Origin: Hyphomicrobium sp.
Lineage (GTDB): Bacteria > Pseudomonadota > Alphaproteobacteria > Rhizobiales > Hyphomicrobiaceae
DNA length: 52,492 bases
Direction: 5' to 3'
Assembly: GCF_003987855.1 (NCBI RefSeq)
Contig: NZ_RXIZ01000021.1
Span: 1 to 52,492, forward strand
The translations under genes and the position numbers were made by a program. The notes under the pieces were generated by a model. The model did not search any database and was not told the origin of the DNA. It worked only from the letters and a program-made list of their open reading frames with translations. Of the stretch, positions 7,245 through 23,920 are shown one piece after another (the first letter of the stretch is position 1; each line of letters starts with the position of its first letter).

Positions 7245-8189
7245 TTAACTCCGCGAGTCGGCGGTCTCTGCACGAGCTATTTCCTGATTGCGTTTGACTG
7301 CTTCATTTTGCGCGCGAAGCCATGCGTACCATAGGTCAAGACCTTCACCCGTACGGGCCGACAGGCAGATGATCGTCGCTCGCGTATTTACAGCCCCAAG
7401 GTTCGCAATCGCTTTTTTGAGGTCGAATTCCAGGTGAGGCAGCAGGTCGATCTTGTTCAGTAATACGACGTCAGCTGCGCGAAACATGTGAGGATACTTC
7501 AGCGGTTTGTCCTCGCCCTCGGTCACCGAGAGAATTGCAATTTTTGATCGCTCCCCAAGGTCGAAGAGAGCAGGGCAGACGAGATTGCCGACGTTCTCGA
7601 TCAGCACGACCGAACCGAAAGTTGGACGAAGTTCTTCAATGCCGCGGGCGACCATATCGGCCTCGAGATGGCATCCCGTACCGGTATTGATCTGAACGCA
7701 GGGCGCGCCTGCAGAACGAATACGCTCTCCGTCGGCGGACGTCGCCTGATCGCCCTCAAGAACAAAAAGATCGTTCCTCGATTTCAAATCCAGGATCGTC
7801 CGTTCCAATAACGTCGTCTTGCCCGACCCTGGCGAGCTTACGATGTTGAGCGCGAGAATCTCTCTTCCCGCAAACCAGGCACGATTGACGTCCGCGAGCC
7901 TGTCATTCTTCTCCAACACCCGCGCCTCGAGTTCGACGATCGAAGCCGAACTGGACCTGTGTTTTGGATGCTCATGCGTGTGGTCGTGGGGGTGATCATG
8001 GTCGTGATCGTGGTCGTGATGATCGTGCCCATGGCTGTGCCCCTTCCCATCGGAATGGACATGCTCATGATGGTGATCGTGATGATGAATATGAGCGGGC
8101 GTGTCGTCGCGCAGCGGGCTTGTTTTTCCCGTTTCCAGATTGGTCAGCGTCGTTTTGGCTCCGGTGCTGCAACCGCATGTGGTGCACAT
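7245..8189 (-). CDS. hypB: Hydrogenase nickel-insertion GTPase HypB
   Basis: A 314-residue GTPase that delivers Ni to the hydrogenase large subunit together with HypA. The start at 8187-8189 overlaps the hypA stop by one base. It has the N-terminal high-affinity Ni motif CTTCGC (residues 2-7). A histidine-rich region follows (about 23 His between residues 33 and 77) that can store nickel. The SIMIBI GTPase core follows with a P-loop SSPGSGKTT, the ENVGNLVCPA metal-site segment and NKID. It is the last gene of the long hydrogenase operon. Complete. Confidence 0.96.
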   Translation of the reverse strand: MCTTCGCSTGAKTTLTNLETGKTSPLRDDTPAHIHHHDHHHEHVHSDGKGHSHGHDHHDHDHDHDHPHDHTHEHPKHRSSSASIVELEARVLEKNDRLADVNRAWFAGREILALNIVSSPGSGKTTLLERTILDLKSRNDLFVLEGDQATSADGERIRSAGAPCVQINTGTGCHLEADMVARGIEELRPTFGSVVLIENVGNLVCPALFDLGERSKIAILSVTEGEDKPLKYPHMFRAADVVLLNKIDLLPHLEFDLKKAIANLGAVNTRATIICLSARTGEGLDLWYAWLRAQNEAVKRNQEIARAETADSRS

Positions 8190-8527
8190 TAGGCCGCCTC
8201 CTCCAATTCCATCGATTTGATATTGAGCTCTTCGCCGCCGATCAGGTCGACTTCGCGACTGCCGCAAGGGCACGGCGAATAGAGCGAGGGCGCGACAAAC
8301 TCCGAGCCGCACGAACGACAGCGCCCGCGCCCCTCTACTGCACGAATATCGAGGCGGGCACCGTCCACCGGCGTTTCAGCGGAAATCACACCGAAGCAGA
8401 AGGCGATGGCGTCAGCCATAACGCCGGAAAGCGCTCCAACTTCGAGTGTAACGGCACGAACGCGGCGGCCCCGGGCAGCTTCGGATACGATTGCCACGAT
8501 ATTTCGCGTGATGCTGAGTTCGTGCAT
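8189..8527 (-). CDS. hypA: Hydrogenase nickel metallochaperone HypA
   Basis: A 112-residue HypA. The invariant N-terminus MHELS provides the Ni ligand His2. A C-terminal zinc ribbon carries CRSC and CPC pairs, so the second pair is compressed to C-x-C (CPCGS) where many HypA proteins have C-x2-C. It works with HypB to load Ni into apo-HupL. It overlaps hypB by one base (TAATG), indicating translational coupling. It lies 60 bp downstream of hupE. Confidence 0.95.
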   Translation of the reverse strand: MHELSITRNIVAIVSEAARGRRVRAVTLEVGALSGVMADAIAFCFGVISAETPVDGARLDIRAVEGRGRCRSCGSEFVAPSLYSPCPCGSREVDLIGGEELNIKSMELEEAA

Positions 8528-8587
8528 TGCCAGCCACTCCTGTTTGACGGCGCAGCTACGGATTTAGGCTGCGCCGCCCTTCGAAAC

Positions 8588-9193
8588 TCAGGTAGCGAGC
8601 CACCCCGCGAGAATAGACACGCCAGCGATAGCTCCGGCCGTGCCCGCACATCTCTTCAGGATCGTCGCGGGAGTTTCTCCAAGTCGGTCGAGGCTCAGCC
8701 CGAGAGCGATACCGGTTATGTGGAGAAGCGCGGTCGCGCAAACGAAACCCGCGGCATAAGGAAGAAAGCTGATGCCCAGACCGATCCCCTCTGAGCCGTG
8801 CGCGTGGCCGTGAAAGACAGCAAAGATGCCTACGAGCGCCATCGCGGCAATCGTTGGCAGCCTGACGCCGAGAGCAATGGCCAATCCCATGGCGACAACG
8901 GAAATGCCGATACCTTCTTCGACCATGGGCAACGGCCAGCCGCAATAGCCGAGCGCACCGCCAAAGATCATCGTGCCGACGAAGGCCGAAGGGACAAGCC
9001 AGATTGCAGCGCCGCCGAGGTTCACGGCAAACAAGCCTACGGCAACCATGGCCAGCACATGATCAATGCCGCTCAGCGGATGCATGAAGCCGCGGCTGAA
9101 AGTATCGACGGGTCCCACCCCGACGTGTGCGAACGCAGGTCCGGCGGTCATAAGGATCATGGCGCCTGCGAGCAGTGGCAATTTCCTTAGCAT
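8588..9193 (-). CDS. hupE: HupE/UreJ family membrane nickel protein
   Basis: The start at 9193 is chosen because GGGAG lies 7 bp upstream and a signal peptide follows at once (MLRKLPLLAGAMILMTAGPAFA, shown as two parts MLRKLPLLAGAM and ILMTAGPAFA). An ATG at 9232 would add 13 residues. The mature protein opens with HVGVG and carries the HPLSGIDHVLAM motif of HupE/UreJ, with His and Asp proposed to bind nickel. About six further membrane helices follow. HupE proteins are linked to nickel uptake for hydrogenase or urease. The gene sits between hypE and hypA in the operon. Confidence 0.9.
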   Translation of the reverse strand: MLRKLPLLAGAMILMTAGPAFAHVGVGPVDTFSRGFMHPLSGIDHVLAMVAVGLFAVNLGGAAIWLVPSAFVGTMIFGGALGYCGWPLPMVEEGIGISVVAMGLAIALGVRLPTIAAMALVGIFAVFHGHAHGSEGIGLGISFLPYAAGFVCATALLHITGIALGLSLDRLGETPATILKRCAGTAGAIAGVSILAGWLAT

Positions 9194-9225
9194 GGCATTT
9201 CTCCCGATAGAGGTTTCTTTAGACA

Positions 9226-10296
9226 TCAACAAATTCTTGGAAGCTGCTCGCCGACCAGCATGTCGACGATGCGCACGCCGCCGAATACCGTGCGCATCGT
9301 GACACGACCGGGCTCCCCTCGACCCACTTCACCGATGATCTCAGCATCCTGTCCCAATGGGTCGGAACGCAGAGCCCGAAGTGCGGCATCGGCCTCCTCG
9401 GGCGGAACGACCGCAACGAGCTTGCCTTCATTGGCGATATAAAGCGGGTCTAGTCCCAGGATCTCACAAAATCCCTTCACCTCAGGCCGTATCGGTGTGT
9501 GCTCCTCGTCGACTGAGATTGAGACACCAGACGCATCAGCAATCTCGTTCAGCACAGTTGCGATGCCGCCGCGCGTCGCGTCGCGGATCGCGCGGGTGTT
9601 TGGCGCAGCTTTGAGAAGGTCTGCAATCAAACCATGAAGCGATGCGCAATCACTCACGATTGGGCTATCGAGCGCCATGTCCCCTCGGGCGCCTAGGATA
9701 GCGGCCCCGTGATCGCCAAGAAGGCCGTTGACGAGGACGACGTCGCCGGGCCTTGCACGATCGACGCCGAGGGAGATGCATTCGGCGATAACGCCTATGC
9801 CGGTCGTCGTCAGGAATACCTTATCGCAGGCACCTTTATGGACGACCTTCGTATCGCCGGTGACGATCCTAACGCCGGCGGCTCGCGCCGTCTCGGCCAT
9901 CGAGCGGGCAATTTTTCGCAGAAGATCGACGGAAACGCCTTCCTCGATGATGGCCGCGCAGGAGATGTAGAGCGGCTTGGCGCCGCCAACCGCCAGATCA
10001 TTGATGGTGCCGCAGATCGCAAGCTTTCCGATGTCACCGCCAGGAAAGAAGAGCGGGTCCACGACGAACGCATCGGTCGTGAAGGCGATGCGGTCTCCAA
10101 GCTTGGTCAAGCTAAGAAGGTCTATACGCGCTTGGTCTTCAAGTGCGCTGGCGCCTTCGCCGTCGAACACCGAAATGAATACATCATCGATGAGGTCTTT
10201 CATCGCCTTGCCGCCACCGCCATGTGCCAGCGTGACGTTCGGTACTGAGACGGTGCCCAGCCTTCGCTTTGCCCGGCTGATCGGGATGACGTTCAT
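9226..10296 (-). CDS. hypE: Hydrogenase maturation factor HypE
   Basis: A 356-residue HypE that dehydrates a thiocarboxamide on its C-terminal Cys to a thiocyanate for the Fe(CN)2CO cofactor. The start at 10296 overlaps the hypD stop by four bases (ATGA). It shows the AIR-synthase-like pattern: LAHGGGGKAMKDLID near the N-terminus, FTTDAFVV, GTINDLAVGGA, and RDATRGGIATVLNEIA. It ends in the invariant PRIC, so the acceptor Cys is intact. The longer upstream reading frame overlapping hypD is not used. Confidence 0.96.
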   Translation of the reverse strand: MNVIPISRAKRRLGTVSVPNVTLAHGGGGKAMKDLIDDVFISVFDGEGASALEDQARIDLLSLTKLGDRIAFTTDAFVVDPLFFPGGDIGKLAICGTINDLAVGGAKPLYISCAAIIEEGVSVDLLRKIARSMAETARAAGVRIVTGDTKVVHKGACDKVFLTTTGIGVIAECISLGVDRARPGDVVLVNGLLGDHGAAILGARGDMALDSPIVSDCASLHGLIADLLKAAPNTRAIRDATRGGIATVLNEIADASGVSISVDEEHTPIRPEVKGFCEILGLDPLYIANEGKLVAVVPPEEADAALRALRSDPLGQDAEIIGEVGRGEPGRVTMRTVFGGVRIVDMLVGEQLPRIC

Positions 10297-11423
10297 GATG
10301 CCACCGCCTGTTTTTTGATTCCGCCATATTGGTAGTAAGCAGCACAGGCACCTTCGGAAGATACCATCAGCGCGCCGAGCGGCGTCTCGGGCGTGCATGC
10401 GGTGCCGAAAACTTGGCATTGCCAGGGCTTGATCAATCCCTTCAGGACGCCACCACATTGGCACGCGTGTGGATCGGCGACTTTCAGATGGGGCATGGCG
10501 AATTTTCGTTCGGCATCGTATTGCGCATAGGCGTCGCGAATGCGCACGCCGGAGTGCTCGATGGAGCCGAGGCCTCTCCATTCAAAGAATTCGCGCAACT
10601 CGTAGACCTTGTAGACGGCATCGAGTGCTTGCGCATTTCCCTCTTCCGGAACGATGCGCGTATATTGGTTTTCGATCTCGGCGCGGCCGTCCTTGATCTG
10701 CTTCAGGACCATCCAGATCGACTGCAAAACGTCGAGCGGCTCGAATCCAGCGACGACCATCGGCCGATTGTAGTAATGGGCGACGAATTCGTAGGGGTTT
10801 GTTCCGATTACCATCGAAACGTGGCCCGGCCCGAGGAAACCGTCGATCTGCATGTCGGGATCGTCGAGGATTGCTTTAATCGTTGGCACGATCGTGATGT
10901 GATTGCAGAACACTGAAAAGTTCGTGACGCCCTCTGCCTCCGCTTGCAGGATCGTCAAAGCCGTCGAGGGCATCGTCGTTTCAAAGCCGATGCCGAAGAA
11001 CACGACCTCACGATTTGGATTCTTGCGGGCTAAGGCAAGTGCGTCCATCGGCGAATAGACCATGCGGATATCGGCACCGCTGGCCTTGGCCTGCAACAGG
11101 CTCTTGCGCGAGCCAGGAACGCGCATGGCATCTCCGAAGGTTGTGCAGATAACATTCGGCTGCTCGGCGACCGCGACGCAATCGTCAATGCGCCCCATCG
11201 GCAGCACGCAAACGGGACAACCCGGTCCATGAACAAGCTCGATTTCCTTAGGCAGCATGCCTTCGATGCCGTAGCGGAAAATGGAATGCGTGTGGCCGCC
11301 ACAGACCTCCATGATCGCGATGGGTCGGTCCTTAGCGATATCGATCTCGCTGACGAGCGCCGCTATTTCCTTGACCAATGATTTGGCCCTGTCGCGATCG
11401 CGAAATTCATCGACGTACTTCAT
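10293..11423 (-). CDS. hypD: Hydrogenase Fe(CN)2CO assembly scaffold HypD
   Basis: A 376-residue HypD, a [4Fe-4S] protein on which the Fe(CN)2CO unit is built together with HypC and HypE. Conserved motifs are MEVCGGHTHS, HGPGCPVCVLP with the redox Cys pair, FGIGFETT, GPGHVS, and the C-terminal Cys set CQCGG, WQCQVFG, ACTPETPLG. Full length. Thirty-three bases separate it from hypC, and it overlaps hypE by four. Confidence 0.96.
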   Translation of the reverse strand: MKYVDEFRDRDRAKSLVKEIAALVSEIDIAKDRPIAIMEVCGGHTHSIFRYGIEGMLPKEIELVHGPGCPVCVLPMGRIDDCVAVAEQPNVICTTFGDAMRVPGSRKSLLQAKASGADIRMVYSPMDALALARKNPNREVVFFGIGFETTMPSTALTILQAEAEGVTNFSVFCNHITIVPTIKAILDDPDMQIDGFLGPGHVSMVIGTNPYEFVAHYYNRPMVVAGFEPLDVLQSIWMVLKQIKDGRAEIENQYTRIVPEEGNAQALDAVYKVYELREFFEWRGLGSIEHSGVRIRDAYAQYDAERKFAMPHLKVADPHACQCGGVLKGLIKPWQCQVFGTACTPETPLGALMVSSEGACAAYYQYGGIKKQAVAS

Positions 11424-11456
11424 CCCGACTCTCCCGGCAGTGTATTTGTTATCTTG

Positions 11457-11738
11457 CTATCGCAGTCCTGAAGAGCGCATCGCCTCCATCTCGGCTTGGG
11501 CTTCGCCGAGTTCGCGTAGGATTTTCAGCGTTTCGGCTGCTTCAGCCTCATCGATGCGACTCATGGCAAATCCGACGTGGATAAGGACCCAGGCGCCGAC
11601 GCAGGAGCTGACCGGGTTCGCCTCGTCGACGATGCACGCGACGTTCACTTGGCGCTTGATGCCGCTGACGTCCACGGTCGCCAGTTTCTTATCCGCATCG
11701 TCAATCTTTACGATGCGTCCTGGAATGCCGAGACACAT
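11457..11738 (-). CDS. hypC: Hydrogenase maturation chaperone HypC
   Basis: A 93-residue HypC starting at ATG 11736-11738 with the invariant MCLGIPG, whose Cys2 binds the iron cofactor and the large subunit. The OB-like body (VDVSGIKRQVNVACIVD, HVGFAMSRIDEAEA) is typical, with a C-terminal helix. The start lies 31 bp inside the end of hypF, so the two are coupled. HypC partners HypD in the next gene. Confidence 0.95.
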   Translation of the reverse strand: MCLGIPGRIVKIDDADKKLATVDVSGIKRQVNVACIVDEANPVSSCVGAWVLIHVGFAMSRIDEAEAAETLKILRELGEAQAEMEAMRSSGLR

Positions 11739-14164
11739 GGCGTCGATCCTCCGGCTTTCTTGTTCTTGCATTCTATGAGTTGGGCGGCTGCGATCGCCGC
11801 CTGACCGAGCGATAGTCCTCCGTCTCCCGACGGCACGTTGGCTTGGGTGAGAACTTTGAAATCCATCGATTCCAGACGGGCGGTAACCTGCTCGAGTAGA
11901 ACACGGTTGTGGAAGCAGCCACCAGACAGAGCGACGGTGTCGAAGCGCGGCCCTGCTTCGCTGTCGCGCGCTACGAGCTTCTCGCACATCGCGGATATGA
12001 CGCGAGCCAATCCCCGATGGAAACGTGCCGCCATGATACCGACGGGCGTTTTCAGAATGAGATCGCCAAGGATGGCGTTCCATGCTGCGAGCGGTTCTAC
12101 ATAGGGGAGCCGCGACCCCTTGAGGTTCGGGATGGTGAATGGGTAAGCGAGCGCTTCATCTTCATTCCAAAGCGCCTCACGATCGACGGCGGCTTCGAGC
12201 ATGGCGGCCGCTTCCCCCTCGTAGCCTTGCCGTTCGAAGCACAGGCCCATAGCTGCGGCGGCAGCGTCGAACAAACGCCCGCAAGACGAGGCTTTCGGTG
12301 AATTGACGCCGGCCTGCAGCATAGATTCGATTATCTCACGCGGCTTACTTTCGAGCAGATGGAAGATCTCAAGATCCGCAAAGTTCATCGCCAAGAACGA
12401 CCAGCCCATTTCGGCCGTTAGATGAGCGTAGAGATTGCGCCAAGGCTCGCGCGAGGCCGCGTCGCCTCCGATCATAGCAACGGGCTTGAACGTCCCCAGG
12501 CGTTCAAAGTGCCGATAGTCCGCAAGCAAAAATTCGCCGCCCCAGATTCCCCCGTCCGCACCGTAGCCGAGGCCGTCGAGCGAGATGCCGAGCACGCGAC
12601 CGCCATCTAACGGCCAACCGTTCTCAACGAGGCAGCTTGCGACGTGAGCGTGATGGTGTTGAACCTCGATGAGCGGCACGCCGAGACTGCGGCACATGCT
12701 TTCTGCGTGGCTCTTGCTGCTATATCCGGGATGGCGATCGCAGACGATGGCAGTCGGCGCCACGTCGGTCATGTCCCGGTAAAGGTTTATCGACCTGGTG
12801 TAATCATCAAACGTCCGCGCGTCGACTAGGTCGCCGATGTGCTGGGACAAAACTGCGCTTCCGGATTTGACGATGCAGAATGTGTTTTTCAAATCCCCGC
12901 CGGCGGCGAAGAGTTCAGGCGCTTGCTCGAAGCCTCGTGGCAGCCCGATGGCGGCCGGCGCGTAACCCCGCGAACGACGCAGAACTCTCGTCTTCCCCGC
13001 GGAATTCTGAACAACGGAGTCATCCACTCGGTTCAGTATGTCCCTGTCATGGGCAAGAACGTACGTCGCAATGCCTGAGAGCTCTTCTTGAGCGGCGACA
13101 TCGTCGATCACTTGCGGGGCATCGGAACAGTTTCCAGAGGTCATCACGACCGGGCGAGACATGCGCCGAAGGAGAAGCGCATGCAACGGCGTGTTGGGAA
13201 GCATGAATCCGAGCGTGCGTAGCCCGGGCGCGATGACCTCCGGAAGGGGCGCGCTGCCAGACGCGTCCAACAAGACGATTGGTGCACAAGCACTCTTTAG
13301 AACCGCTTCATCTTCAGCCGTTACGGTCACATAGCGTCTGATAACCTCGAGGTCGCGCGCCATGAGCGCAAACGGCTTGCGGTCGCGATGTTTCCGTTCC
13401 CGGAGGCTCTCTACCGCGTCGACGCGCGTGGCGTCGCAGGCGAGCTGATAGCCGCCTAGCCCCTTGATGGCGACAATCTCTCCCTTCTGGATAAGTCCCA
13501 AAGCAGCGTCGACCTCATCGAGCATTGAGGCTTGGTCGAAGTTGAATGGCTTACCGTCAAAACGGAAGAGGCGGGCTTTCGGGCCACAAACATGGCATGC
13601 AGTTGCTTCAGCGTGGAACCTGCGGTCCCGGGGATCGCCGTATTCGGCTGCGCAATCGGAACAGAGATCAAAGGCTGCCATACTCGTCGTCAGCCGATCG
13701 TAAGGGACGGACCGAACGATAGAGAGTCGTGGACCGCAATTGGTGCACGTCGTGAAAGGGTATCGGTAACGGCGCGAAAATGGATCGAAGATTTCCCGCT
13801 CACAATCCGCGCAGAGTGCGGCGTCAGGCGCAATCTCGGTGTTGCTCCTGCCTAACGTGCTTTCCGCGATTTCGAAGGTAGCGGGCAATTCCCCCAAGAA
13901 GCGCTGATGCTCGACGGATTGGATCGAAGCAAGCGATGGCGCGCCCATCCGAATTTGGCGGAGAAGCGCTTCGATGGCTGGGTGTTCACCACGTACGCGA
14001 ATAAGAACTCCCTCAGCGTCGTTGCGTACGTATCCCGAGAGTCCAATTTCGCGTGCGGTTCTCCAGACGAACGGACGGAAGCCCACGCCTTGCACGCGGC
14101 CACGTACTCGAATCTCGACGCTCTCGACTGCTGATCCTACATCGATACGGGGGGCGATGTTCAT
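11708..14164 (-). CDS. hypF: Carbamoyltransferase HypF
   Basis: An 818-residue HypF that makes the cyanide ligands from carbamoyl phosphate. The start at 14164 gives a four-base ATGA overlap with the NHL gene. Domains in order are an acylphosphatase-like domain (VRGRVQGVGFRPF, residues ~15-95), twin zinc fingers (CADCEREI...CTNCGPR and CSDCAAEYG...CHVCGPK), a YrdC-like domain, and a Kae1-like C-terminal domain with the metal motif HHHAHVASCL. Full length. Confidence 0.96.
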   Translation of the reverse strand: MNIAPRIDVGSAVESVEIRVRGRVQGVGFRPFVWRTAREIGLSGYVRNDAEGVLIRVRGEHPAIEALLRQIRMGAPSLASIQSVEHQRFLGELPATFEIAESTLGRSNTEIAPDAALCADCEREIFDPFSRRYRYPFTTCTNCGPRLSIVRSVPYDRLTTSMAAFDLCSDCAAEYGDPRDRRFHAEATACHVCGPKARLFRFDGKPFNFDQASMLDEVDAALGLIQKGEIVAIKGLGGYQLACDATRVDAVESLRERKHRDRKPFALMARDLEVIRRYVTVTAEDEAVLKSACAPIVLLDASGSAPLPEVIAPGLRTLGFMLPNTPLHALLLRRMSRPVVMTSGNCSDAPQVIDDVAAQEELSGIATYVLAHDRDILNRVDDSVVQNSAGKTRVLRRSRGYAPAAIGLPRGFEQAPELFAAGGDLKNTFCIVKSGSAVLSQHIGDLVDARTFDDYTRSINLYRDMTDVAPTAIVCDRHPGYSSKSHAESMCRSLGVPLIEVQHHHAHVASCLVENGWPLDGGRVLGISLDGLGYGADGGIWGGEFLLADYRHFERLGTFKPVAMIGGDAASREPWRNLYAHLTAEMGWSFLAMNFADLEIFHLLESKPREIIESMLQAGVNSPKASSCGRLFDAAAAAMGLCFERQGYEGEAAAMLEAAVDREALWNEDEALAYPFTIPNLKGSRLPYVEPLAAWNAILGDLILKTPVGIMAARFHRGLARVISAMCEKLVARDSEAGPRFDTVALSGGCFHNRVLLEQVTARLESMDFKVLTQANVPSGDGGLSLGQAAIAAAQLIECKNKKAGGSTPCVSAFQDAS

Positions 14165-16228: not shown

Positions 16229-16456
16229 TTACCGATATCTAAGATCGCGAAAGAGACGCGGCTGCAGCGCGCCGCCCAGGAAGCCCGCAACTGCCGCTGA
16301 TGCCCAATAGGGAAGGCCGGCCACTCTCGCCGCCAGGACGAAGCAGAGCGCAGCGAAGATAATTCCGATTGCAAGTTGCATGTAGGCTCGCGTGGGCTCA
16401 GCAAAAAGCTGGCCACGGAAGAAGAGCCCAATCGCATTTCGAACCATCTCAAACAT
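16229..16456 (-). CDS. Small membrane protein of the hydrogenase operon, 75 residues
   Basis: Starts at MFEMVRNAIGLFFRGQLF (ATG at 16454-16456). The body has one long or two short membrane helices (YMQLAIGIIFAALCFVLAARV and YWASAAVAGFLGGAL) separated by a short turn, and a basic tail RLFRDLRYR. It lies 5 bp before the NifU-Rieske gene. No named family was recognised. Position and topology suggest a membrane anchor or quinone-side partner for the soluble redox proteins, but that is inference. Confidence 0.7.
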   Translation of the reverse strand: MFEMVRNAIGLFFRGQLFAEPTRAYMQLAIGIIFAALCFVLAARVAGLPYWASAAVAGFLGGALQPRLFRDLRYR

Positions 16457-16463: not shown

Positions 16464-16673
16464 TTACCCAATGAAAGCGGAAACGATGATGCCGATGAGA
16501 ACGCCTGCTGTTCCAGCGACGACGCCGTAGAACGAGCCCATGTAAGCCGCCAGTTCGGTTCCAAGAGCCTTGCCGCCCGTCAGCACGCCGCCAAAAGCGC
16601 CGCCGGCGAGCGATGAGACGAATCCGACGACGAGAGCGAGAACGGCGGCTTCTATCGGGATATTTCCAATCAT
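16464..16673 (-). CDS. Small Gly-rich membrane protein of the hydrogenase operon, 69 residues
   Basis: A 69-residue protein that is almost wholly hydrophobic. Helix 1 is AAVLALVVGFVSSLAGGAFGG, then a GGKALGTELAAY linker, then helix 2 VVAGTAGVLIGIIVSAFIG. It is rich in small residues (Gly, Ala), which favours tight helix packing or oligomers. It is a candidate analogue of the membrane scaffold HucM of the mycobacterial Huc complex, but no sequence identity is claimed. Seven bases separate it from the next small membrane gene. Confidence 0.7.
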   Translation of the reverse strand: MIGNIPIEAAVLALVVGFVSSLAGGAFGGVLTGGKALGTELAAYMGSFYGVVAGTAGVLIGIIVSAFIG

Positions 16674-16705: not shown

Positions 16706-17722
16706 TCAGTCGGCTTCGAGCATCTGTCGCTGAGATACGCTGGGCGTCGCATAGGCGAGCATCTCGCGATCGATCTGATCGAGCGCCTCGGCGACGATCC
16801 GGGCTTTGCCGTGCTCGCCTGCGGCGACAAATATTTCTCTAGCCTCAAGGTACAAATTCCGCGCGGCCGAGACGTTTTGACGATTGCCTGATGTTGGGTC
16901 GCCGGCGTCATCTGGAAGATTCCAGAGGCAGTTGGCTTTGTTGGATATCGTGTTGGCGTATTCGAGCGGCGTTGATTTACGATCTCGAACCTTCAGTGCT
17001 TCATCGTAGGCTTCGATGGCGCGAAGATTGTTCTCCAAGACGTGGCTGGAGGACGCGTATTGGAGTGCGTTTCCGAGATTGTTCTGAAGCATCGCATATT
17101 CGGAAGGGTGATCGATCAAGCTTACGACCCTCAAGCCTTCTTCGAATGCTTGTACGGCGAGCGCCTCGCGCATTTTCGAGCGTTCGTCGGTGAATGGGAT
17201 TGAAAGAAAAGCCGCCGCGAGGTTGTTTTGTAGGATCGCATATTCTTTCGGAAACGCCACACGATCGAAGGTCCGGAGAGACCTCTGATAAGCGGAAATG
17301 GCGTCGGTGATCCGAGACTTTCCCTGGCCTGCGAGACTTTGCAAAACGAGACCGAGATTCATTTCGGCTTCTGCAAGCTCTTCCGCGGTTCCCTGCTCCC
17401 GAATGGCAGGAATCGCTGATTGCAACTCATCCCGCGCGCGTTCCAGTGATTCCGAGCCGTTCTCGGGCAAAGACTGAAGCGCGGTCGCCTTTCGCGCGCC
17501 GATGCGTGCATTCAGCAGCACATGCGTAGGCGGACAAATTTCTTGGGCTTTACTGTAGAGTTCGACGGCTGCTGCAAGGTCATCGGTGGATTGCGGCCTG
17601 ATCTGGAGACCGAGTGCGATTTCCATCAGCATCTCGGCACGCTCTTCAGGCGCGGCGGCATCGGCATCCGCTGCAGCCAAGGCGGCCCGCACCTGCTCTT
17701 GCGCACCGATCGCCACGCACAT
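16706..17722 (-). CDS. TPR-repeat protein of the hydrogenase operon
   Basis: A soluble protein of up to 338 residues built of tetratricopeptide-like helical pairs, for example AVELYSKAQEICPP, AISAYQRSLRTFDR, YAILQNNLAAAFLSI, YAMLQNNLGNALQYA and AIEAYDEALKVRDR. TPR genes recur in group 1h/2a loci and probably mediate protein contacts. A GGGAGG box touches the ATG at 17722, so the true start may be the GTG six bases further in (17716). No signal peptide was seen. Confidence 0.82.
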   Translation of the reverse strand: MCVAIGAQEQVRAALAAADADAAAPEERAEMLMEIALGLQIRPQSTDDLAAAVELYSKAQEICPPTHVLLNARIGARKATALQSLPENGSESLERARDELQSAIPAIREQGTAEELAEAEMNLGLVLQSLAGQGKSRITDAISAYQRSLRTFDRVAFPKEYAILQNNLAAAFLSIPFTDERSKMREALAVQAFEEGLRVVSLIDHPSEYAMLQNNLGNALQYASSSHVLENNLRAIEAYDEALKVRDRKSTPLEYANTISNKANCLWNLPDDAGDPTSGNRQNVSAARNLYLEAREIFVAAGEHGKARIVAEALDQIDREMLAYATPSVSQRQMLEAD

Positions 17723-17811: not shown

Positions 17812-18150
17812 TCACATTTCAGTTTGCAAACCTAGTTGGCAGCCGAACGCTTGGCCTGCGATGAGTGCTGCGCGATCCTTGTCCCATGCTGCCAGCAGCG
17901 TAATTTCAACGGAGTCTTCGATGCCGTTGTCGCGGAAGAAATCAGCGGCGGTGACGACACGGCCGCCCGCGCTCGTGCTTACTTTGATGATGTAACCCCC
18001 AGCGGCGCGGTTCAGCACCGGGAGCATGACCAGATCGTCGCCGTCGCGAAGAAGAACGACGGTGTCGAGAGAGTTGAAAAAGCGCTCGTAAATCTCGCGA
18101 CTAAAGTGAAGGGCACCGCGGCGAATGACAAGTACTGCGGTCCCGGTCAT
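17812..18150 (-). CDS. Conserved-looking unknown protein coupled to the hydrogenase protease
   Basis: A 112-residue protein whose ATG overlaps the stop of the maturation protease by four bases. It is an alpha/beta protein without Cys clusters: LVIRRGALHFSREIYERF, then strands TVVLLRDGDDLVMLPVL, GGYIIKVSTSAGGRVV and an acidic region AADFFRDNGIEDSVEITL. No signal peptide or membrane helix was seen. No family was recognised. Tight coupling to the protease suggests a step in large-subunit processing or assembly. Confidence 0.75.
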   Translation of the reverse strand: MTGTAVLVIRRGALHFSREIYERFFNSLDTVVLLRDGDDLVMLPVLNRAAGGYIIKVSTSAGGRVVTAADFFRDNGIEDSVEITLLAAWDKDRAALIAGQAFGCQLGLQTEM

Positions 18151-18638
18151 GCGTCACCGACAGCGTCCGAGGGCGCGAAGGAAGCCAGTCGCGCCGCGAC
18201 GCGATCCGCAACGATTGCCGCCGCGGCGTCGATTTCGGGCGAAAGACCGATCCCAAGGCTGAGATCGCCCGCCTCGATCAAGAAGACGGTCACATCGGCG
18301 GGAAACTGATCGCGGTAGAGCTTCCGCCCGGCAAAAAGCGCATGGTCCCAGCGAAAATCGTGAAGATTGAGCGACGGGGAGTGCTGCGATTCGAGGTGTT
18401 CGCCCGGAACTTCAAAAATTGATCCAGGCTCGGAAGCCGTTCTCGAGCTGTCGACAATAATAAGCGCGTCACAGCCGCGCGCCGCGTACATCACGCTCAT
18501 TCCGTCGGTGCCCGCATCGAGGAGACGAACGTCCGCCCGGGTGCGAATATCGTCGCGGCGGCGGAGCAAGCGAATAACCTCGATGCCTACGGCATCATCC
18601 TTCCTGTTGGCGTTACCGCAACCAATCACCGCGATCAT
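18147..18638 (-). CDS. Hydrogenase maturation endopeptidase (HupW/HupD/HoxW type)
   Basis: A 164-residue protease that removes the C-terminal tail of HupL after Ni insertion. The start at 18638 (MIAVIGCGNANRKDDAVG) carries the family nucleotide-like loop GCGN-x4-DD with the nickel-sensing acidic residue. Also present are LLDAGTDGMSV with the second Asp and a HDFRWDHAL segment with the His ligand. Only one base separates it from the preceding gene stop. The ~44 residues upstream of this Met in the longer frame overlap the previous gene and are unlikely to be real. Confidence 0.9.
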   Translation of the reverse strand: MIAVIGCGNANRKDDAVGIEVIRLLRRRDDIRTRADVRLLDAGTDGMSVMYAARGCDALIIVDSSRTASEPGSIFEVPGEHLESQHSPSLNLHDFRWDHALFAGRKLYRDQFPADVTVFLIEAGDLSLGIGLSPEIDAAAAIVADRVAARLASFAPSDAVGDA

Positions 18639-18639
18639 G

Positions 18640-18969
18640 TCAAATCCGCCAGAGCCGGCACGACCATTCGGGCTCAACCGGGCAATCGAGCTCCGGCAGC
18701 TCGCAATATTTGCGGTGTACGAGATAGTACATGCAGGTTTCGCACGGTTGATCGATGCCGCCGTGCTCAATCGTGTGATCCGTAAACCCGGCGATCACGA
18801 GCTTGGCCTTGAGGTCGTCGCCGGCAGATCTCAGCCGCATGATGATAGCCTGCACCTCATCATGGGTATCGGCACGGGGAAAGACCTCGGTTTCAAGGCC
18901 CGAACGGAGAAGCGATCGGATTTCTTCCCGCCGCTGCTCGTCGTTCGTCGTTTCGAGAGTTATCGCCAC
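18640..18969 (-). CDS. Four-Cys HiPIP-like protein B of the hydrogenase operon
   Basis: A 109-residue paralogue of the gene just upstream. The C-terminal half shares the block C-x2-C-MYYLVHRK-x-C-x-LPEL, then PVEP-x-W-x-CRLWRI. Cys are at 76, 79, 89 and 104, plus an extra Cys at 95. The spacing and the aromatic residue at the last Cys recall high-potential iron-sulfur proteins, and a zinc or rubredoxin-like site is the alternative. No signal peptide is present, unlike classical HiPIP. It probably acts as an electron relay or assembly factor for HupSL. Confidence 0.75.
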   Translation of the reverse strand: MAITLETTNDEQRREEIRSLLRSGLETEVFPRADTHDEVQAIIMRLRSAGDDLKAKLVIAGFTDHTIEHGGIDQPCETCMYYLVHRKYCELPELDCPVEPEWSCRLWRI

Positions 18970-18996: not shown

Positions 18997-19314
18997 TCAG
19001 ATCCTCCACAACCGGCACCACCAGTCCGGCTCGACGGGGACCGAAAGCTCCGGCAGGTCGCACCATTTCCGATGCACGAGATAATACATGCACTCGAGGC
19101 ATCGCTGCTGGTCGGGTCCATAGGGATGATTGACGAAGCCGCTGATTACGAGCTTCGACTTTAGATCTTCCGAATCAAGATGACGAAGTTCGGTCAGAAT
19201 CGCGCCGAACTCCTTCTCGGTTTCCGGAAACGGTTCTGTTTGCGTCTCGAGACCTGCCGCCATCATGTCGGAAATGGTTTTAAGCACAGCCTCGTCTTTT
19301 CCGTTCGCGCTCAT
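18997..19314 (-). CDS. Four-Cys HiPIP-like protein A of the hydrogenase operon
   Basis: The start at 19312-19314 (MSANGKDEAV) is preferred over the longer frame because of the GGTGGAAG box just upstream and because the paralogue has the same length. It is 105 residues with Cys at 72, 75, 85 and 100 (C-x2-C-x9-C-x14-C, ending WWCRLWRI). The N-terminal half is helical and acidic. It is the first gene after hupL and 27 bp before its paralogue. The resemblance to HiPIP is from spacing only. Confidence 0.75.
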   Translation of the reverse strand: MSANGKDEAVLKTISDMMAAGLETQTEPFPETEKEFGAILTELRHLDSEDLKSKLVISGFVNHPYGPDQQRCLECMYYLVHRKWCDLPELSVPVEPDWWCRLWRI

Positions 19315-19408: not shown

Positions 19409-21007
19409 TCAGGCTGTACGGAAGCGAGCGAGCTGCTCCCCGGATTTCGCATCATATGCATGCACCGTGCAAACGAGACAGCTATCGTATGATCGGCAGA
19501 CATGCCCGACCTCGACCGGATCGTGCGGATCGGTTATCGGCGTCCCGATCAGGGCTTCCTCGATGGGCCCGCGGATCCCGTCCCCCGTTCGTGGACCGAC
19601 ATTCCAAGTGGTCGGTGCGATGATTTGATAATTCTTGATCTTGCCGCCCTGCACGTCGATCCAGTGGCAAAGTGCCCCGCGCGCCGCTTCAGTGGCGCCC
19701 CAGCCGCGGCCGTCCTTTTCGGTCGGCTTGATGTACCACTGATCCTTAAGTTTTAATTCGCGCAGGATGCGCTCCGCTTCACGATAGAGCTTCACCGCTT
19801 CGTGCATGCGTGCGAAATGGCGAAGCACGATGCTGGCTCCACCCATCTTCTGGTACATGTCAAGCACAAGCGGGTCGTAATGCTGCCAGCTCTCGCCATG
19901 CTTGCCGCCGGCGATCAACTGTCGCGACAGCGGGCCAGCTTCGAGACGGCCGTCCTGAAGGTGCATGACGGCCGAGGCCCACGAGTACTTGCCATCGTGG
20001 TCGATGACATTTTTCTGTACCGGCTTCGTGGTGCGGTCGAAAGGATGAACCGGCTGCGGTTCGTCATACCAAGCGTGGCGCAGATCCTCGCGCGTATACT
20101 GCTGATCCATCAGCTTATGTGTGTTTGTTGCGCCGTCAAACACACCGCTCTTCATGATGACCGCAGCGTTGCGGCCTTCGATCGTTGGCTTGTTGTAGCG
20201 ATCTTCGTGCGGCAGATATCCCCACGAGATGTATTTGTGGTGGCCGCGCCCGTATTTGTCGAGGCCAATGTCCATCGACATGCGCCAGAATAGACCGAGA
20301 TCGGAGTTCGCGTGCTCCGGGCGCTCATCGAGCCAAGCCATAAAATCGTCGTAGGAACGGATCTGCTCGTAACGCTCGAGCGTGCAGCCCAACCAGATTG
20401 GTTCAAGCCAATTGCGGCGGAAATGCTCGAGGATCGACCAGGCACGGGTCACGTCCGTCAACGTCGGTGCGCACATGACGCCGCCGGGGACCATGTAGCT
20501 CGAATGCGGCCACTGGCCGCCAAGCAGCGCATAAATTTCTACCGGCCGCCCCGATATTGTGACGCCGACCTCATAATTCTTGCCTGTGAATGGCGCCCAG
20601 CGCTTTACCGCTTCCTCAAAGAACGGCGACTTTGAATAATTCTTGTTGGTGTAGTCGATCATGAAGAGGCCGTAGTGGTGGCGTGGCTGGCTCTGGATCG
20701 TTTCCACGATTTGCCCGAGATTGCGGGCGAGGATGGCGTTCCTCGGCACCTCAGTTTTCCAAGCCGTATCGAGCGCCCAAGCGGCACACGAAAGATGGGA
20801 AGCGCCACAGATACCGCAGGCGCGCGGCGTAACCACGAGCCCCGCTTGCGGGTCCTTGTCGCGTAGGATGACTTCAAAACCGCGGAATAATTCGGCGTTG
20901 GTCCAGGCATTGACGACAACGCCGTCCTGGATATCGACGCGAACGTCAAGGTCGCCCTCGACTCGTCCGACCGGCGAAATGTCCAGGGTTTGAACTGCTG
21001 CTGACAT
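19409..21007 (-). CDS. hupL: [NiFe]-hydrogenase large subunit, group 2a
   Basis: The 532-residue catalytic subunit. It opens MSAAVQTLDISPVGRVEGDL, the characteristic start of the cyanobacterial HupL lineage. The L1 Cys pair is in RACGICGASH. The L2 pair is in DSCLVCTVHA near the C-terminus, and the 15-16 residues after the His (ending LARFRTA) form the processed tail, so protease cleavage is expected. Ni is held by the four Cys. The length and internal blocks (YALLGGQWPHSSYMVPGG, ATEAARGALCHWI) match group 2a rather than groups 1d or 3. Oxidises H2, in aerobes often at low concentration. Confidence 0.96.
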   Translation of the reverse strand: MSAAVQTLDISPVGRVEGDLDVRVDIQDGVVVNAWTNAELFRGFEVILRDKDPQAGLVVTPRACGICGASHLSCAAWALDTAWKTEVPRNAILARNLGQIVETIQSQPRHHYGLFMIDYTNKNYSKSPFFEEAVKRWAPFTGKNYEVGVTISGRPVEIYALLGGQWPHSSYMVPGGVMCAPTLTDVTRAWSILEHFRRNWLEPIWLGCTLERYEQIRSYDDFMAWLDERPEHANSDLGLFWRMSMDIGLDKYGRGHHKYISWGYLPHEDRYNKPTIEGRNAAVIMKSGVFDGATNTHKLMDQQYTREDLRHAWYDEPQPVHPFDRTTKPVQKNVIDHDGKYSWASAVMHLQDGRLEAGPLSRQLIAGGKHGESWQHYDPLVLDMYQKMGGASIVLRHFARMHEAVKLYREAERILRELKLKDQWYIKPTEKDGRGWGATEAARGALCHWIDVQGGKIKNYQIIAPTTWNVGPRTGDGIRGPIEEALIGTPITDPHDPVEVGHVCRSYDSCLVCTVHAYDAKSGEQLARFRTA

Positions 21008-21057
21008 TGATTGACTCGCTCCCTACGAGGATCTGATCGAAATGTTTATTGGTTGGA

Positions 21058-22020
21058 TCAAACGACGAAGATGTCTTCTTCGGCCCATTTCGGAGACGCC
21101 GCCTTCGCGGCCGCAGTCAGCTTCACGTAGCCGGTCTTGTCGACGCCTAGCGGCATGTCTCTCGGGACGCCCATCACTGTCTGGGTTTTAAAGACGGTGC
21201 CGGGCGCGAGGTCATAAAAGGGGAATTCCGGCTCGGTGCAGCCCATGCATGGCATACCAGCGCGGGTCTTGGACGATTGGCGATTCCAGAGAATGCGGTT
21301 GCACGGCGAATGCGTCATCGGTCCGCGGCAGCCAAGGTCGTAGAACAGGCATCCCTTGCGCTGACCGAATTCCGTTGCGGAAACCTTGTAGGCGAAGTGC
21401 ATGTTCCGAGTGCAGCCTGTTTGCGTAAAGCTCTGAAAGAACGTTTTCGGCCGCTGGAATTCATCGAGCGTGAGATCGCCGCCACGGCCGGTGGCAACGG
21501 CGACGACGATCTGCGTGATCCAGTCTGGATGGGCCGGGCAGCCTGGGATGTTGATGACGGGAAGCCCGGCTTTCGATTTGTAATCTTTACCGAGAAAGCC
21601 GCCGTGTCCGCGCTTCAAAAATTGCAGGCCAACGCTCTCAGATGGGTTCGGCGCTGTCGCCGGAATGCCGCCCCACGTGGCGCAATCTCCGACGGCGACG
21701 GTGAAGGAAGCGACATTGGCAAGCTCGCGTACCCAATCCATCATCGGGCGCCCGGCGAAGCGGTTCCATTCTCCGGTTCCGTTCGGAGCTTTGACGACGC
21801 TTCCTTCGAAAACAAAGATGTCGAGAGGCACCTGCCCGCTCACGAGCGCGCGCATCAGCTTCTGGAGATTTTCTCCGAGCTCCATTCCGAGAGACGGATG
21901 CCAGAGAACATTGATGCCGAAATCAGTGACGAGATCGCACGCACTCGGCTCCTCGGCATTGAGAAACGACATCGTATTGCCAGAACATGCGCCGCCCTGG
22001 AGCCACAAAAGATTGGCCAT
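21058..22020 (-). CDS. hupS: [NiFe]-hydrogenase small subunit, group 2a
   Basis: The 320-residue Fe-S subunit, beginning MANLLWLQGGACSGNTMSF without a Tat signal, as in group 2a. Cluster-binding residues seen are C in GGACSGN, GDCATWGG and IPGCPAHPDW (proximal), then the C-terminal set FTQTGCTRN, RKGCLFYDLGCRG, SPCNRILW and GMPCMGCTEPEFPF (medial and distal). The usual C-x2-C of the proximal site reads C-S-G-N, so one Cys is missing, as expected for this lineage. Ribosome site GGGGAGGA. A sigma-54 promoter lies about 50 bp upstream. Confidence 0.96.
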   Translation of the reverse strand: MANLLWLQGGACSGNTMSFLNAEEPSACDLVTDFGINVLWHPSLGMELGENLQKLMRALVSGQVPLDIFVFEGSVVKAPNGTGEWNRFAGRPMMDWVRELANVASFTVAVGDCATWGGIPATAPNPSESVGLQFLKRGHGGFLGKDYKSKAGLPVINIPGCPAHPDWITQIVVAVATGRGGDLTLDEFQRPKTFFQSFTQTGCTRNMHFAYKVSATEFGQRKGCLFYDLGCRGPMTHSPCNRILWNRQSSKTRAGMPCMGCTEPEFPFYDLAPGTVFKTQTVMGVPRDMPLGVDKTGYVKLTAAAKAASPKWAEEDIFVV

Positions 22021-22070
22021 TTAATCCTCCCCTGAGCCCGGCGATTGAATTCGCCTTCATCGTTAAGGGG

Positions 22071-22087
22071 AGCAAGAAGCAGGCCAG
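22071..22087 (-). promoter_or_regulatory. Sigma-54 (-24/-12) promoter of hupSL
   Basis: The minus strand reads CTGGCCTGCTTCTTGCT (22087 to 22071). It has GG at -24 and GC at -12 with the required ten bases between, matching TGGCAYG-N4-TTGCW except for two positions in the -24 box. A start near 22060 would give a 40-base leader ending in a strong ribosome site. The gene upstream encodes a sigma-54-dependent activator with GAFTGA, which fits. Confidence 0.75.
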
Positions 22088-22161
22088 TCCAAAAAAAATT
22101 TTGAATGCCTCGCGATTTCAAAATCTTCCCGCGCTGCGTCGGAAGAATCTCGCGAGCCGAG

Positions 22162-22176
22162 AGCGTGAACGACGCT
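22162..22176 (-). promoter_or_regulatory. Candidate upstream activator site for hupSL
   Basis: The inverted repeat AGCGT-N5-ACGCT is centred about 85-110 bp upstream of the predicted sigma-54 start, the usual distance for an enhancer-binding-protein site. An A-tract (22091-22098) between it and the promoter could bend the DNA or bind IHF. This rests on symmetry and position only. Confidence 0.35.
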
Positions 22177-22226
22177 GTAAAGTATCTAAGCAGCCGCAAA
22201 CTTGCTTTGCTAAACCGCGCGCCAAG

Positions 22227-22469
22227 TCAGCCTTGGCGGCTGCCGCATGTGGGGCACGCAACTTCAAGCAAGTAGCCGAACCATATTTTCCGACAGTAGC
22301 TGCACCAGTGTCCCGTCGTCTGCTCGATGGGAAGGCCGATTTCCCGCGCGAGCGTTCCAAACGTCGCGCGCTCCAAATCGGACGTCGGGTTCGGCCTGAC
22401 CCGCGAATAAGGAAATGAAACGATCTCTGCCGGGCCGTTTTTATTGTCGCCAGCCCCCCCACTCATCAT
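22227..22469 (-). CDS. Small zinc-ribbon protein coupled to the hydrogenase regulator
   Basis: An 80-residue protein whose ATG overlaps the regulator stop by four bases (ATGA). The N-terminal 50 residues are polar. The C-terminal part has C56-x2-C59 (WCSYC) and C72-x2-C75 (CPTC) with an aromatic-rich link (KIWFGYLLEVA), a compact zinc-ribbon or rubredoxin-like site. The family was not recognised. Placement between the regulator and the hupSL promoter suggests a regulatory or metal-sensing role, which is inference. Confidence 0.7.
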   Translation of the reverse strand: MMSGGAGDNKNGPAEIVSFPYSRVRPNPTSDLERATFGTLAREIGLPIEQTTGHWCSYCRKIWFGYLLEVACPTCGSRQG

Positions 22470-23920
22470 GACGCGTTTTCCTCGTTGAGGCGGTAACGCC
22501 GGATCTTATTCGAAAGTCCTACCCGGGATAAACCGAGTTCCTCAGCAGCCCTGCTTTGGTTCCACCGATAACGCTTCAACGTCTGCTCCACCAAATGCCG
22601 CTCGAGGCTCTCGACCTGGTCTTTCAGCGTCTTGCCATCGGGTACAAATCCTCGATCCCGGTTCGCGGAACCGCGGCGGGGGGCGTCCTGAATGTTCGGC
22701 GACAGATGTCGCGTCGTAAGGTATTCGCCGTCACCGGTCAGCGCGACAAGGCGCCGGATCTCGTTCTCCAATTCGCGCACGTTGCCGGGGAAGTCGTAAT
22801 GCGAGAGCTTTTCCAATAAATTTGCCGAGAGACCGAGAATCTTGCGGCCCATGCTTTCGCTGTGCTTCGCCGCGAAAAACTCAGCGAGCGCCGGAATATC
22901 GGCGACGCGATCGCGGAGAGCCGGGACCTCGAACTCTATTCCTTTTAAGCGGTAATAAAGATCGCGACGGTATTCGCGCGCGGCCACCAACTCCGAGAGC
23001 GACCGGTTCGAGGCGGCGATGATGCGCACGTTCGAGTGCGTTGTCCGGTCCGAACCCAAAGGCTTCACTTCCCCTTCCTGCAAGAAGCGCAGCAGCGAAA
23101 CCTGAAATGATGGCGAGACCTCGGAAATCTCATCAAGAAAGACTGTACCGCCGTCGGCGGCGCGAAAGAGGCCCAGGCGATCGGAAATGGCGCCGGTGAA
23201 GGCGCCGCGCTTATGCCCGAAGAGTTCCGACTGCAACAGGTCATCGTTCATACCACCGCAGTTCTGCATCAGAAGCGGGCTCGATTTGCGTGGCGAGTTA
23301 TAATGGATCGCCCGCGCGAGGAGCTCTTTGCCCGTTCCTGTTTCGCCTAGAATGAGGATCGGCAGGTCCGTTCTCGCAGCCGTCTTCGCCATCGCGCAGA
23401 TCGTTGCCATCTTCTCGCTGACGTAGACGAGCTTTTCAAACTGCTGCCCCTCGCGGATCAAACGCAAGTCATGCGGTTGCTGAGAGGTCATACTGTCCTC
23501 GCTCATCTTGAACTCGCGCGATATTAGCCGATGGCGACGAGCGAGTTCTCTGCTTTCCAGCCCCCGCTTGACGATGAGTGCGATCTGCTCGACCTCAAGA
23601 GGTTTGCGGACGTACTGATAGACCGAGGCTTCCTTAAACGCCTTCGATTGGCGGCTTGCGGCTTGGGCAAGCACGAGGACACGAACGATGTCGGGATGGG
23701 AGATGCGCAAATTGGAAAGAAAGGCGCAGCCATCAAAATCCTTTGTTCCCTCTTCGGCAACCACCAAGTCAATGTGGACGTCCCTGATGAGCTGCTGGGC
23801 ATCCGAACCGGTAGTCGCAAAGAGCACGCGATAGCCGTTGCGATCAGCTAGAACCTCTGCGAGCTCGGTCCAGGCGCCCGCATCGCGCGCCACGATCAAG
23901 ATTGTGTAGTCCCGGTCCAT
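22466..23920 (-). CDS. Sigma-54-dependent response regulator of hydrogenase genes (HoxA/HupR type)
   Basis: A 484-residue enhancer-binding protein. An N-terminal receiver-like domain (5-125), a AAA+ domain with Walker A GETGTGKE, the sigma-54 contact loop GAFTGA and Walker [10 protein letters not shown], and a C-terminal Fis-type HTH ([20 protein letters not shown]). In the receiver the phospho-acceptor position is Glu (E56 in DLVVAEEG) and the N-terminal acidic pair is Ala-Arg. The Lys of RKP is kept. It therefore probably acts without phosphorylation, as reported for some HoxA proteins. It is the likely activator of the downstream sigma-54 promoter. Confidence 0.92.

Follow-up and report, generated by a model that had tools for sequence, protein, structure and literature searches.

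A group 2a hydrogenase operon of Hyphomicrobium sp. and its pair of four-cysteine proteins

The stretch analyzed here (the window) comprises 52,492 nucleotides, positions 1 to 52,492 of contig NZ_RXIZ01000021.1 in the Hyphomicrobium sp. assembly GCF_003987855.1. Positions 7245-23920 of the window hold 20 genes in one minus-strand run, transcribed from high to low coordinates, which encode the subunits HupS and HupL of a group 2a hydrogenase together with maturation, regulatory, and accessory proteins. Judged from sequence, the operon is an intact member of a published clade, the Proteobacteria-associated group 2a radiation with HucE, NHL, and other hypothetical proteins described by Islam et al. 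(PMC7784904). The enzyme type itself is already known; its less described part is a pair of small proteins with four cysteines each (four-Cys A and B), which is, among the loci surveyed, strictly tied to the proteobacterial/Nitrospirota branch. We consider it somewhat better than an even bet that the operon encodes a proteobacterial high-affinity uptake hydrogenase of group 2a whose HupS would hand electrons to ubiquinone, with the four-Cys pair and the NifU-Rieske protein HucE as partners and with transcription from a sigma-54 promoter.

HupL matched HucL of Mycobacterium with 634 bits versus 203 bits for the next solved hydrogenase, and HupS matched HucS with 527 bits versus 124. In a quick tree of 90 HupL rows, which carries a long-branch warning and includes 2a rows from cyanobacteria and mycobacteria and none from groups 1h, 2b, or 2e, the HupL of the window sits among alphaproteobacteria, adjoining L032. 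A first-pass annotation of this DNA had assigned the enzyme to group 2a with cyanobacterial and mycobacterial kinship, and both the scores and the grouping of HupL with 2a in the tree agree with it. HupL was 78-83% identical to five alphaproteobacterial plasmid copies, 56% to the Mycobacterium plasmid HucL, and 56-57% to the Thermus, Sulfobacillus, and Runella proteins. The ligand motifs CGICG and DSCLVC are present in its translation; the solved HucL chains end opposite residue 516, and the 16 residues beyond are presumably the part cut off by the maturation protease. The HucS match begins at residue 2 of HupS, so there is no N-terminal (export) extension beyond it. Of the ten HupS cysteines, Cys28 varies, and the other nine are invariant wherever a proteobacterial, cyanobacterial, or actinobacterial-type row is ungapped at the position. 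A single in-frame stop codon in HupL matches from other genomes raised the question of selenocysteine. The idea was dropped, since TGA, TAA, and TAG are all represented and the matches stop close to query residue 517, where a tail-less large subunit would end; these codons were read as natural stops. Six genomes (G147, G093, G194, G073, G159, and G115) hold a HupL relative of ~41% identity with no internal stop and no four-Cys match, and no HupL relative was found in virus contigs.

To follow the accessory genes, we surveyed 90 group 2a loci, namely the window, nine plasmids, and 80 genome contigs, each gene being sought with profiles. The contigs were the best 80 of 422 relatives; four plasmids alone stood for the actinobacterial/mixed and Bacteroidota branches, and L001-L022 (fragments or other hydrogenases) stood outside the gene survey. 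Taxon groups for the gene counts and the HupS comparison were drawn by record title after the gene table had been seen, and L067 (uncultured, phylum not named) was grouped with the non-proteobacterial rows though the tree places its HupL among the proteobacterial ones. At least one four-Cys copy was present in all 64 Proteobacteria/Nitrospirota loci (the window, five alphaproteobacterial plasmids, 56 proteobacterial contigs, and two Nitrospirota contigs), 5 of which had seeded the profile. The profile search found none in the 26 other loci, which were 20 Cyanobacteria (including the metagenome-assembled genome REEB67), one Melainabacterium, L067, and the Mycobacterium, Thermus, Sulfobacillus, and Runella plasmids; all 19 loci of the main cyanobacterial branch are among these. 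On the HupL tree, the four-Cys label needs at least 4 changes versus a mean of 22 with shuffled labels.

The same tie was seen in whole genomes. Three cyanobacterial genomes and the REEB67 and Melainabacteria genomes had no four-Cys copy anywhere, and the window's own genome has only the two in the operon. Among 398 phylum genomes (own included), four carry four-Cys genes, the same four that have a HupL of at least 79% identity; 94 had some HupL match, the next-best HupL reaching 41%. Likewise, the 12 plasmid records with four-Cys genes are the same 12 with a HupL of at least 78%, seven of them Bradyrhizobium plasmids with equal scores.

The genes lie directly behind hupL and apart from the hyp genes, and the spacing C-x2-C-x9-C-x14-C is kept in all 119 readable copies of the 120 found in the survey. 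The duplication is judged old, because a single branch, with support of 97 in a short alignment, separates the first copies (A) from the second (B). Eight loci have a single copy, two of these being cut by a contig end, and all eight single copies group with the first. In L034 (2304-2531) and L042 (11958-12281), the second protein keeps the Cys-rich end and has a shortened or different N-terminal part; the genome of L035 (Methylocapsa acidiphila) has a further four-Cys gene far off (G458:C2:82154-82456). A full-text literature search, with supplementary figures outside it, returned no description of the pair. The pair is the under-described part of the operon, and its clade-wide strictness was not found in the literature searched.

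The Cys-bearing end of the four-Cys proteins resembles that of high-potential iron-sulfur proteins (HiPIPs), with the pattern C-x2-C ... C ... WC-x-x-W and an aromatic residue after the last cysteine. For comparison, a HiPIP profile was made from PF01355 loci, found in 10 of 150 phylum genomes (11 loci, giving 13 copies). The hhalign comparison of the two profiles scored 28.6 (E 1.3e-4, probability 54), with cysteines aligned to cysteines. None of 200 shuffles of the HiPIP columns with the cysteines kept reached this score (mean 11.6, maximum 24.9), nor did any of 200 with all columns shuffled (maximum 25.7), and 15 other in-house profiles scored 8.3 to 16.1. HIPIP was also the Pfam family touched by most four-Cys members (4 of 52, best E 0.039). 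A model of the protein, built from 52 sequences, reached a predicted local distance difference test score (pLDDT) of 94.9 and has three helices in its N-terminal part. By profile, the pair would thus be HiPIP-like, resembling that family without a structural match. A HucM-like origin of the four-Cys proteins was also tried and rejected, the two profiles comparing with a score of 14.2 (E 0.17). Searches of solved structures gave no match for four-Cys B at E 1 and, for the four-Cys profile at E 10, two matches of chance level.

In M. smegmatis, HucS holds menaquinone via Lys212, Tyr229, and Tyr301, and HucM forms the conduit (PMC10017518). The HupS of the window has these quinone-contact residues as K212, Y227, and Y298. 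They are kept in 62, 62, and 63 of 63 proteobacterial/Nitrospirota HupS rows, respectively, one row being gapped at two of them, and in 19/19, 3/3, and 4/4 rows of the other groups. Because they are kept in the window and across the aligned rows, HupS is probably able to reduce quinone by itself. In the host genome, UbiG scored 277.7 bits (cut-off 103), menD stayed below its cut-off (57.8 versus 244.2 bits), and no futalosine-route family was found; ubiquinone is therefore the likely acceptor. HucM (DUF1641) had no match in the same genome. Its profile matched nothing in 58 proteobacterial/Nitrospirota loci with 3 kb upstream (window included), where a very diverged scaffold could escape, and nothing in 16 cyanobacterial loci with 3 kb upstream. 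HucM-type genes appeared only in the Mycobacterium, Thermus, and Sulfobacillus plasmids, all three of which were profile seeds; the Mycobacterium seed gene is HucM by its match to chain Q of 7uus (E 2.9e-34).

Taken together in the reading we favor, cytoplasmic HupSL would oxidize trace H2 during aerobic growth, and HupS would deliver the electrons to ubiquinone at the counterpart of the menaquinone site of Mycobacterium Huc. Other partners would stand in for the HucM scaffold in the proteobacterial clade. The four-Cys pair would dock on the hydrogenase and, as HiPIP-like [4Fe-4S] proteins of the cytoplasm, pass electrons along or buffer them, joined by HucE, with its Rieske domain, and by two tiny membrane proteins for contact with the membrane. 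Transcription of hupS would start from a sigma-54 promoter and be driven by the activator encoded just upstream. A narrower proposal, that the duplicated cytoplasmic HiPIP-like pair replaced the HucM quinone conduit as docked electron-handling subunits coupling the enzyme to ubiquinone, we regard as doubtful.

A number of results weigh against giving the pair such a role. The hhalign probability is just 54, a Cys/GWC motif served to choose the 13 HiPIP copies among the PF01355 loci, and the contacts with Pfam HIPIP mentioned above are few and weak. Neither of the window's two proteins matched Pfam HIPIP at E 0.1, nor did anything in the whole genome, and an NCBIfam scan of the 52 members matched no HiPIP model. 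Foldseek found no solved structure like the four-Cys model. The HiPIPs described so far carry electrons in the periplasm (PMC7735108), and, unlike these, the two proteins of the window have no hydrophobic export stretch. Three loci, L067, L085 (REEB67), and L097 (Melainabacterium), have no four-Cys gene, yet their HupL lies inside the proteobacterial part of the tree, so the hydrogenase can probably do without the pair. Moreover, the quinone of the Mycobacterium enzyme is bound by HucS itself, so an additional Fe-S relay may be superfluous, and the HucM branch against which the pair is set was sampled by its three seed loci only.

The pair may instead be structural, consisting of zinc-binding adaptors that hold the HupSL lobes together or to the membrane in a HucM-like manner with no electron transfer. 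Four-Cys genes occurring only where HucM was not found, among the loci examined, would fit such adaptors, as would their place directly behind hupL, as for a subunit, and the confidently modelled N-terminal helices; in addition, deletion of hucM is reported to leave Huc active but not oligomeric (PMC10017518). However, the HiPIP likeness covers the Cys-bearing end, the HucM profile comparison was poor, and cyanobacterial loci have neither HucM (0/16) nor four-Cys genes (0/19), so neither seems required for a 2a enzyme, and we hold the structural role to be questionable too. Slightly less probable, and in our view unlikely, is that the four-Cys proteins and an 80-residue zinc-ribbon-like protein of the operon are maturation factors outside the finished enzyme, for example cluster-assembly helpers or HupS/HupL chaperones. 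Their genes do sit among maturation genes, and group 1 helpers such as HupH, with rubredoxin-like features, are described as acting on HupS (PMC2408588), but the cyanobacterial 2a loci, several of them equipped with the same maturation set, yielded no copy of either, and the pair adjoins hupL rather than the hyp genes. These readings overlap, and their probabilities need not sum to one.

The first-pass annotation had held that no cytochrome b partner is encoded and that the cassette between hupL and hypF may replace it as the electron path. The absence is borne out, since none of the 20 operon proteins matched a cytochrome b family in the Pfam scan. It is usual for group 2a, the M. smegmatis Huc operon as described in PMC6883350 being likewise without such a gene; the cytochrome b search itself was confined to the window's operon. 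As for the replacement, the strong form, in which HupS does not reduce quinone and HucE with the remaining cassette forms the whole path, is improbable in our judgment. Its precedents are in print: HucE was proposed earlier in the same cytochrome-b-replacing role, and in M. smegmatis a single deletion of hucE or hhyE lowers H2 oxidation and the double deletion abolishes it (PMC6883350). For Acidithiobacillus, it has been proposed that a NifU-Rieske protein and a putative HiPIP supply the electron link that is otherwise missing (PMC7735108), so the HiPIP idea is already published for one species, Acidithiobacillus ferrooxidans; there, the putative HiPIP (DN052_04130) lies beside the group 2a hupLS, with the NifU-Rieske gene in the operon, and by its description in that paper may be comparable to the four-Cys proteins. 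Against the strong form, the HucS quinone contacts recur without exception in the HupS rows that are ungapped at these places, and the Huc structure paper does not once mention HucE in its main text. The view that the cassette stands in for cytochrome b thus has partial support, weakened by the contacts kept in HupS.

The features of the operon are listed below in the order of transcription.

22466..23920, minus strand: sigma-54 activator with receiver, AAA, and Fis-type helix-turn-helix parts (Pfam Sigma54_activat 3.5e-62, HTH_8, Response_reg)
22227..22469, minus strand: 80-residue zinc-ribbon-like protein with two CxxC pairs, 52% identical to the MCHK_8361 product
22071..22086, minus strand: -24/-12 sigma-54 promoter-like site TGGCCTGCTTCTTGCT, 51 bases before the hupS ATG
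21058..22020, minus strand: HupS/HucS small subunit (Pfam, HucS match)
19409..21007, minus strand: HupL/HucL large subunit with a 16-residue tail after residue 516 (Pfam, HucL match)
18997..19314, minus strand: four-Cys protein A, 105 residues, C-x2-C-x9-C-x14-C, HiPIP-like end (family alignment, profile comparison, model)
18640..18969, minus strand: four-Cys protein B, 109 residues, old paralogue of A (family alignment)
18147..18638, minus strand: hydrogenase maturation protease, HycI family (Pfam HycI 1.6e-11)
17812..18150, minus strand: 112-residue group 2a accessory protein, mostly beta in its model, with GG, K, N, and GDR conserved
16706..17722, minus strand: TPR-like protein of alr0691 type (TPR_12 1.7e-5, below the Pfam cut-off; gene set as in Nostoc)
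16464..16673, minus strand: tiny membrane protein 1, asr0689-like, two hydrophobic stretches (NCBIfam asr0689_fam, below cut-off)
16229..16456, minus strand: tiny membrane protein 2, in the asr0690 place, one hydrophobic stretch, accompanying tiny protein 1 in related loci
15351..16223, minus strand: HucE-type NifU + Rieske protein, CAH-x16-CPFH (Pfam NifU 6.3e-21, Rieske 8.7e-15)
14161..15354, minus strand: NHL-repeat protein (Pfam)
11708..14164, minus strand: hypF (Pfam)
11457..11738, minus strand: hypC (Pfam)
10293..11423, minus strand: hypD (Pfam)
9226..10302, minus strand: hypE (Pfam)
8588..9232, minus strand: hupE, HupE/UreJ family (Pfam)
8189..8527, minus strand: hypA (Pfam)
7245..8192, minus strand: hypB with a His-rich stretch (Pfam)

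For hypB, hypE, hypC, and hypF, the longest frames start upstream of the likely starts, and the coordinates given use the latter. Neighboring genes overlap by up to 31 bases or are separated by gaps of 1-94 bases, the sole exception being 206 bases before hupS, and this tight spacing supports co-transcription of the run. Pfam matches above the cut-off were obtained for HypA, HypB (cobW/HypB domain), HypC, HypD, HypE (AIRS domains), HypF, HupE, the NifU + Rieske protein, the NHL protein, the protease, HupL, HupS, and the sigma-54 activator. All genes named in the first-pass annotation are open frames, and its account of a complete operon of about twenty adjacent minus-strand genes holds; it had missed the 80-residue gene, which brings the total to 20. 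HupE presumably serves as a nickel permease. No RNA families or tRNAs were found in the window.

Most of the cassette is, by its gene set, known. The extended hyp-operon of Nostoc has tiny membrane proteins, TPR, NifU, and NHL before hypF (PMC2408588); the TPR-like protein, the tiny pair, NifU, and NHL of the window correspond to this arrangement, and the NifU-Rieske protein is HucE. The view that this is a poorly described system was thus mostly wrong, as the extended hyp-operon (PMC2408588), HucE (PMC6883350), and the clade (PMC7784904) have all been published. The TPR-like protein scored 25.4 bits in Pfam, below the cut-off of 30.1, and tiny protein 1 matched asr0689_fam with E 7.3e-9 (35.6 bits versus a cut-off of 95). 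The accessory genes recur in other 2a loci, and the operon type is present in many alphaproteobacterial genera among the relatives listed. Where a Proteobacteria/Nitrospirota locus extends 8 kb or more beyond HupL on the downstream side, the protease was found in 51/51, the 112-residue protein in 50/51, TPR, HucE, and NHL in 47/51 each, and each tiny protein in 45/51. In cyanobacterial loci with 8 kb downstream, the figures were 11/12 for each tiny protein, 10/12 for TPR, 9/12 for NHL, 7/12 for the protease, 5/12 for HucE, and 0/12 for the 112-residue protein, which was not found in any of the 19 loci of the main cyanobacterial branch. All these counts are lower bounds, the loci being finite and some accessory genes lying upstream, for which a flank condition of downstream length only is not ideal. 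The tiny membrane pair occurs where HucM was not seen, and neither of its genes turned up in the three HucM loci; from a sample this small, a mutual exclusion of the pair and HucM is a lead only.

The model of the 112-residue protein (pLDDT 91.2) is mostly beta and had no Foldseek match at 0.001 or better; plant B3 domains, with a probability of ~0.6 and template modelling scores of 0.41-0.47, were too weak as candidates to use. The zinc-ribbon gene lies between the regulator, whose end it overlaps by 4 bases, and hupS, and its protein is related to a listed Mesorhizobium gene product (MCHK_8361, see the list). It was found in 53/90 group 2a loci, window included, and in 51/58 proteobacterial/Nitrospirota loci with 2.5 kb upstream of HupL. 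No family scored above the cut-off for the window protein or for 6 further members scanned, and the search of solved structures gave a single match at E 0.65. The PLSDB table shows no gene at this place in L023, L026, L027, and L031 and lists one in L024; the DNA holds the gene. That table is incomplete, and the locus tags of L026 skip one number, so the gene may be annotated in the original record. In L035 (Methylocapsa acidiphila, 8441-8698), it is apparently split between two frames.

The activator, which we take to be HoxA/HupR-like, has Glu at the usual phospho-Asp place of its receiver domain; an alignment of 54 regulators shows Asp there in 32 and Glu in 17. A degenerate sigma-54 pattern gave the promoter-like site before hupS as its sole match in the window versus 0.03 expected, and the strict consensus with two mismatches gave 13 matches versus 9.9 expected. 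Because the pattern had been loosened to fit and the strict consensus is near expectation, the window alone proves little about the site. It is the comparison among loci that carries weight for the predicted promoter: a site with at least 9/12 matches, 50-150 bases before HupS, was found in 40/61 four-Cys loci versus 0/25 others, with both limits chosen after the sites had been inspected and with 3 of the 89 HupS-bearing loci (fewer than 300 bases upstream) left out.

The host genome comprises 3.78 Mb in 23 contigs and is 99.6% complete. Four of 21 other genomes of the genus searched carry a HupL of at least 90% identity. In two of these four, DNA likeness over the operon extends across window positions 7313-23961 (G013) and 7405-23782 (G005), and no match longer than 200 bases was found in the fetched flanks (~4.6 + 18 kb in G013, 2.3 + 1.1 kb in G005), which suggests that the block stands in different surroundings in related genomes. 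Because of these differing surroundings and the 12 plasmid records with the same operon type, the operon looks like a moving unit and is probably mobile. Its G+C content is 58.7%. The remainder of the window has 56.5%, the adjoining DNA of the contig has 56.8%, and four 20-kb segments taken from other contigs range over 58.2-61.4%, so composition gives no clear sign for or against mobility. A tyrosine-recombinase-like frame (Phage_integrase, 121 residues) lies just upstream of the operon at 25259-25624 and is possibly left over from the element with which the operon arrived. A NicO-type nickel transporter gene lies ~12 kb from the operon at 36044-37141 and possibly supplies nickel to the hydrogenase.

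Among known systems, Huc of Mycobacterium smegmatis (HucSLM, PDB 7utd/7uus) is the best match for HupS and HupL and has the same quinone contacts. The Mycobacterium plasmid locus L025 shares HucE, TPR, NHL, and the hyp genes with the window, whereas the four-Cys pair, the zinc ribbon, the tiny membrane proteins, and the sigma-54 regulator, all present in the window, were not found there; conversely, neither DUF1641/HucM in the window nor a menaquinone route in its host genome was found. Cyanobacterial HupSL with the extended hyp-operon (asr0689-alr0693-hypF) likewise has TPR, the tiny pair, NifU, NHL, and hypF in one run, but the order in Nostoc PCC 7120 differs, TPR coming first in the window. 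Unlike the window, the cyanobacterial loci have no zinc ribbon (0/16 with enough upstream DNA), no four-Cys genes, and no 112-residue protein (0/19 each), and those counted have no sigma-54-like site. The closest parallel in gene content is the plasmid of Sphingopyxis alaskensis RB2256, which has the regulator, zinc ribbon, hupS, hupL, two four-Cys genes, protease, 112-residue protein, TPR, two tiny proteins, HucE, NHL, and hyp genes; its HupL is 83% identical to that of the window. It differs in being a 28.5-kb plasmid, with a SIS-domain gene between hypC and hypD, no HupE match, and tiny genes that score in swapped order. An S. alaskensis strain with the orthologous operon oxidizes H2 to a sub-atmospheric level (PMC10305171), in line with the low-concentration H2 oxidation suggested in the first-pass annotation.

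The survey bears on how group 2a hydrogenases outside Mycobacterium hand their electrons to the respiratory chain. The quinone-contact residues are common to all branches sampled, and the HucM scaffold was seen in three loci only; for the proteobacterial branch, the four-Cys genes offer a small testable set. If the narrower proposal of docked electron-handling subunits were true, the pair would represent a cytoplasmic, hydrogenase-bound HiPIP-like branch outside the Pfam and NCBIfam models searched.

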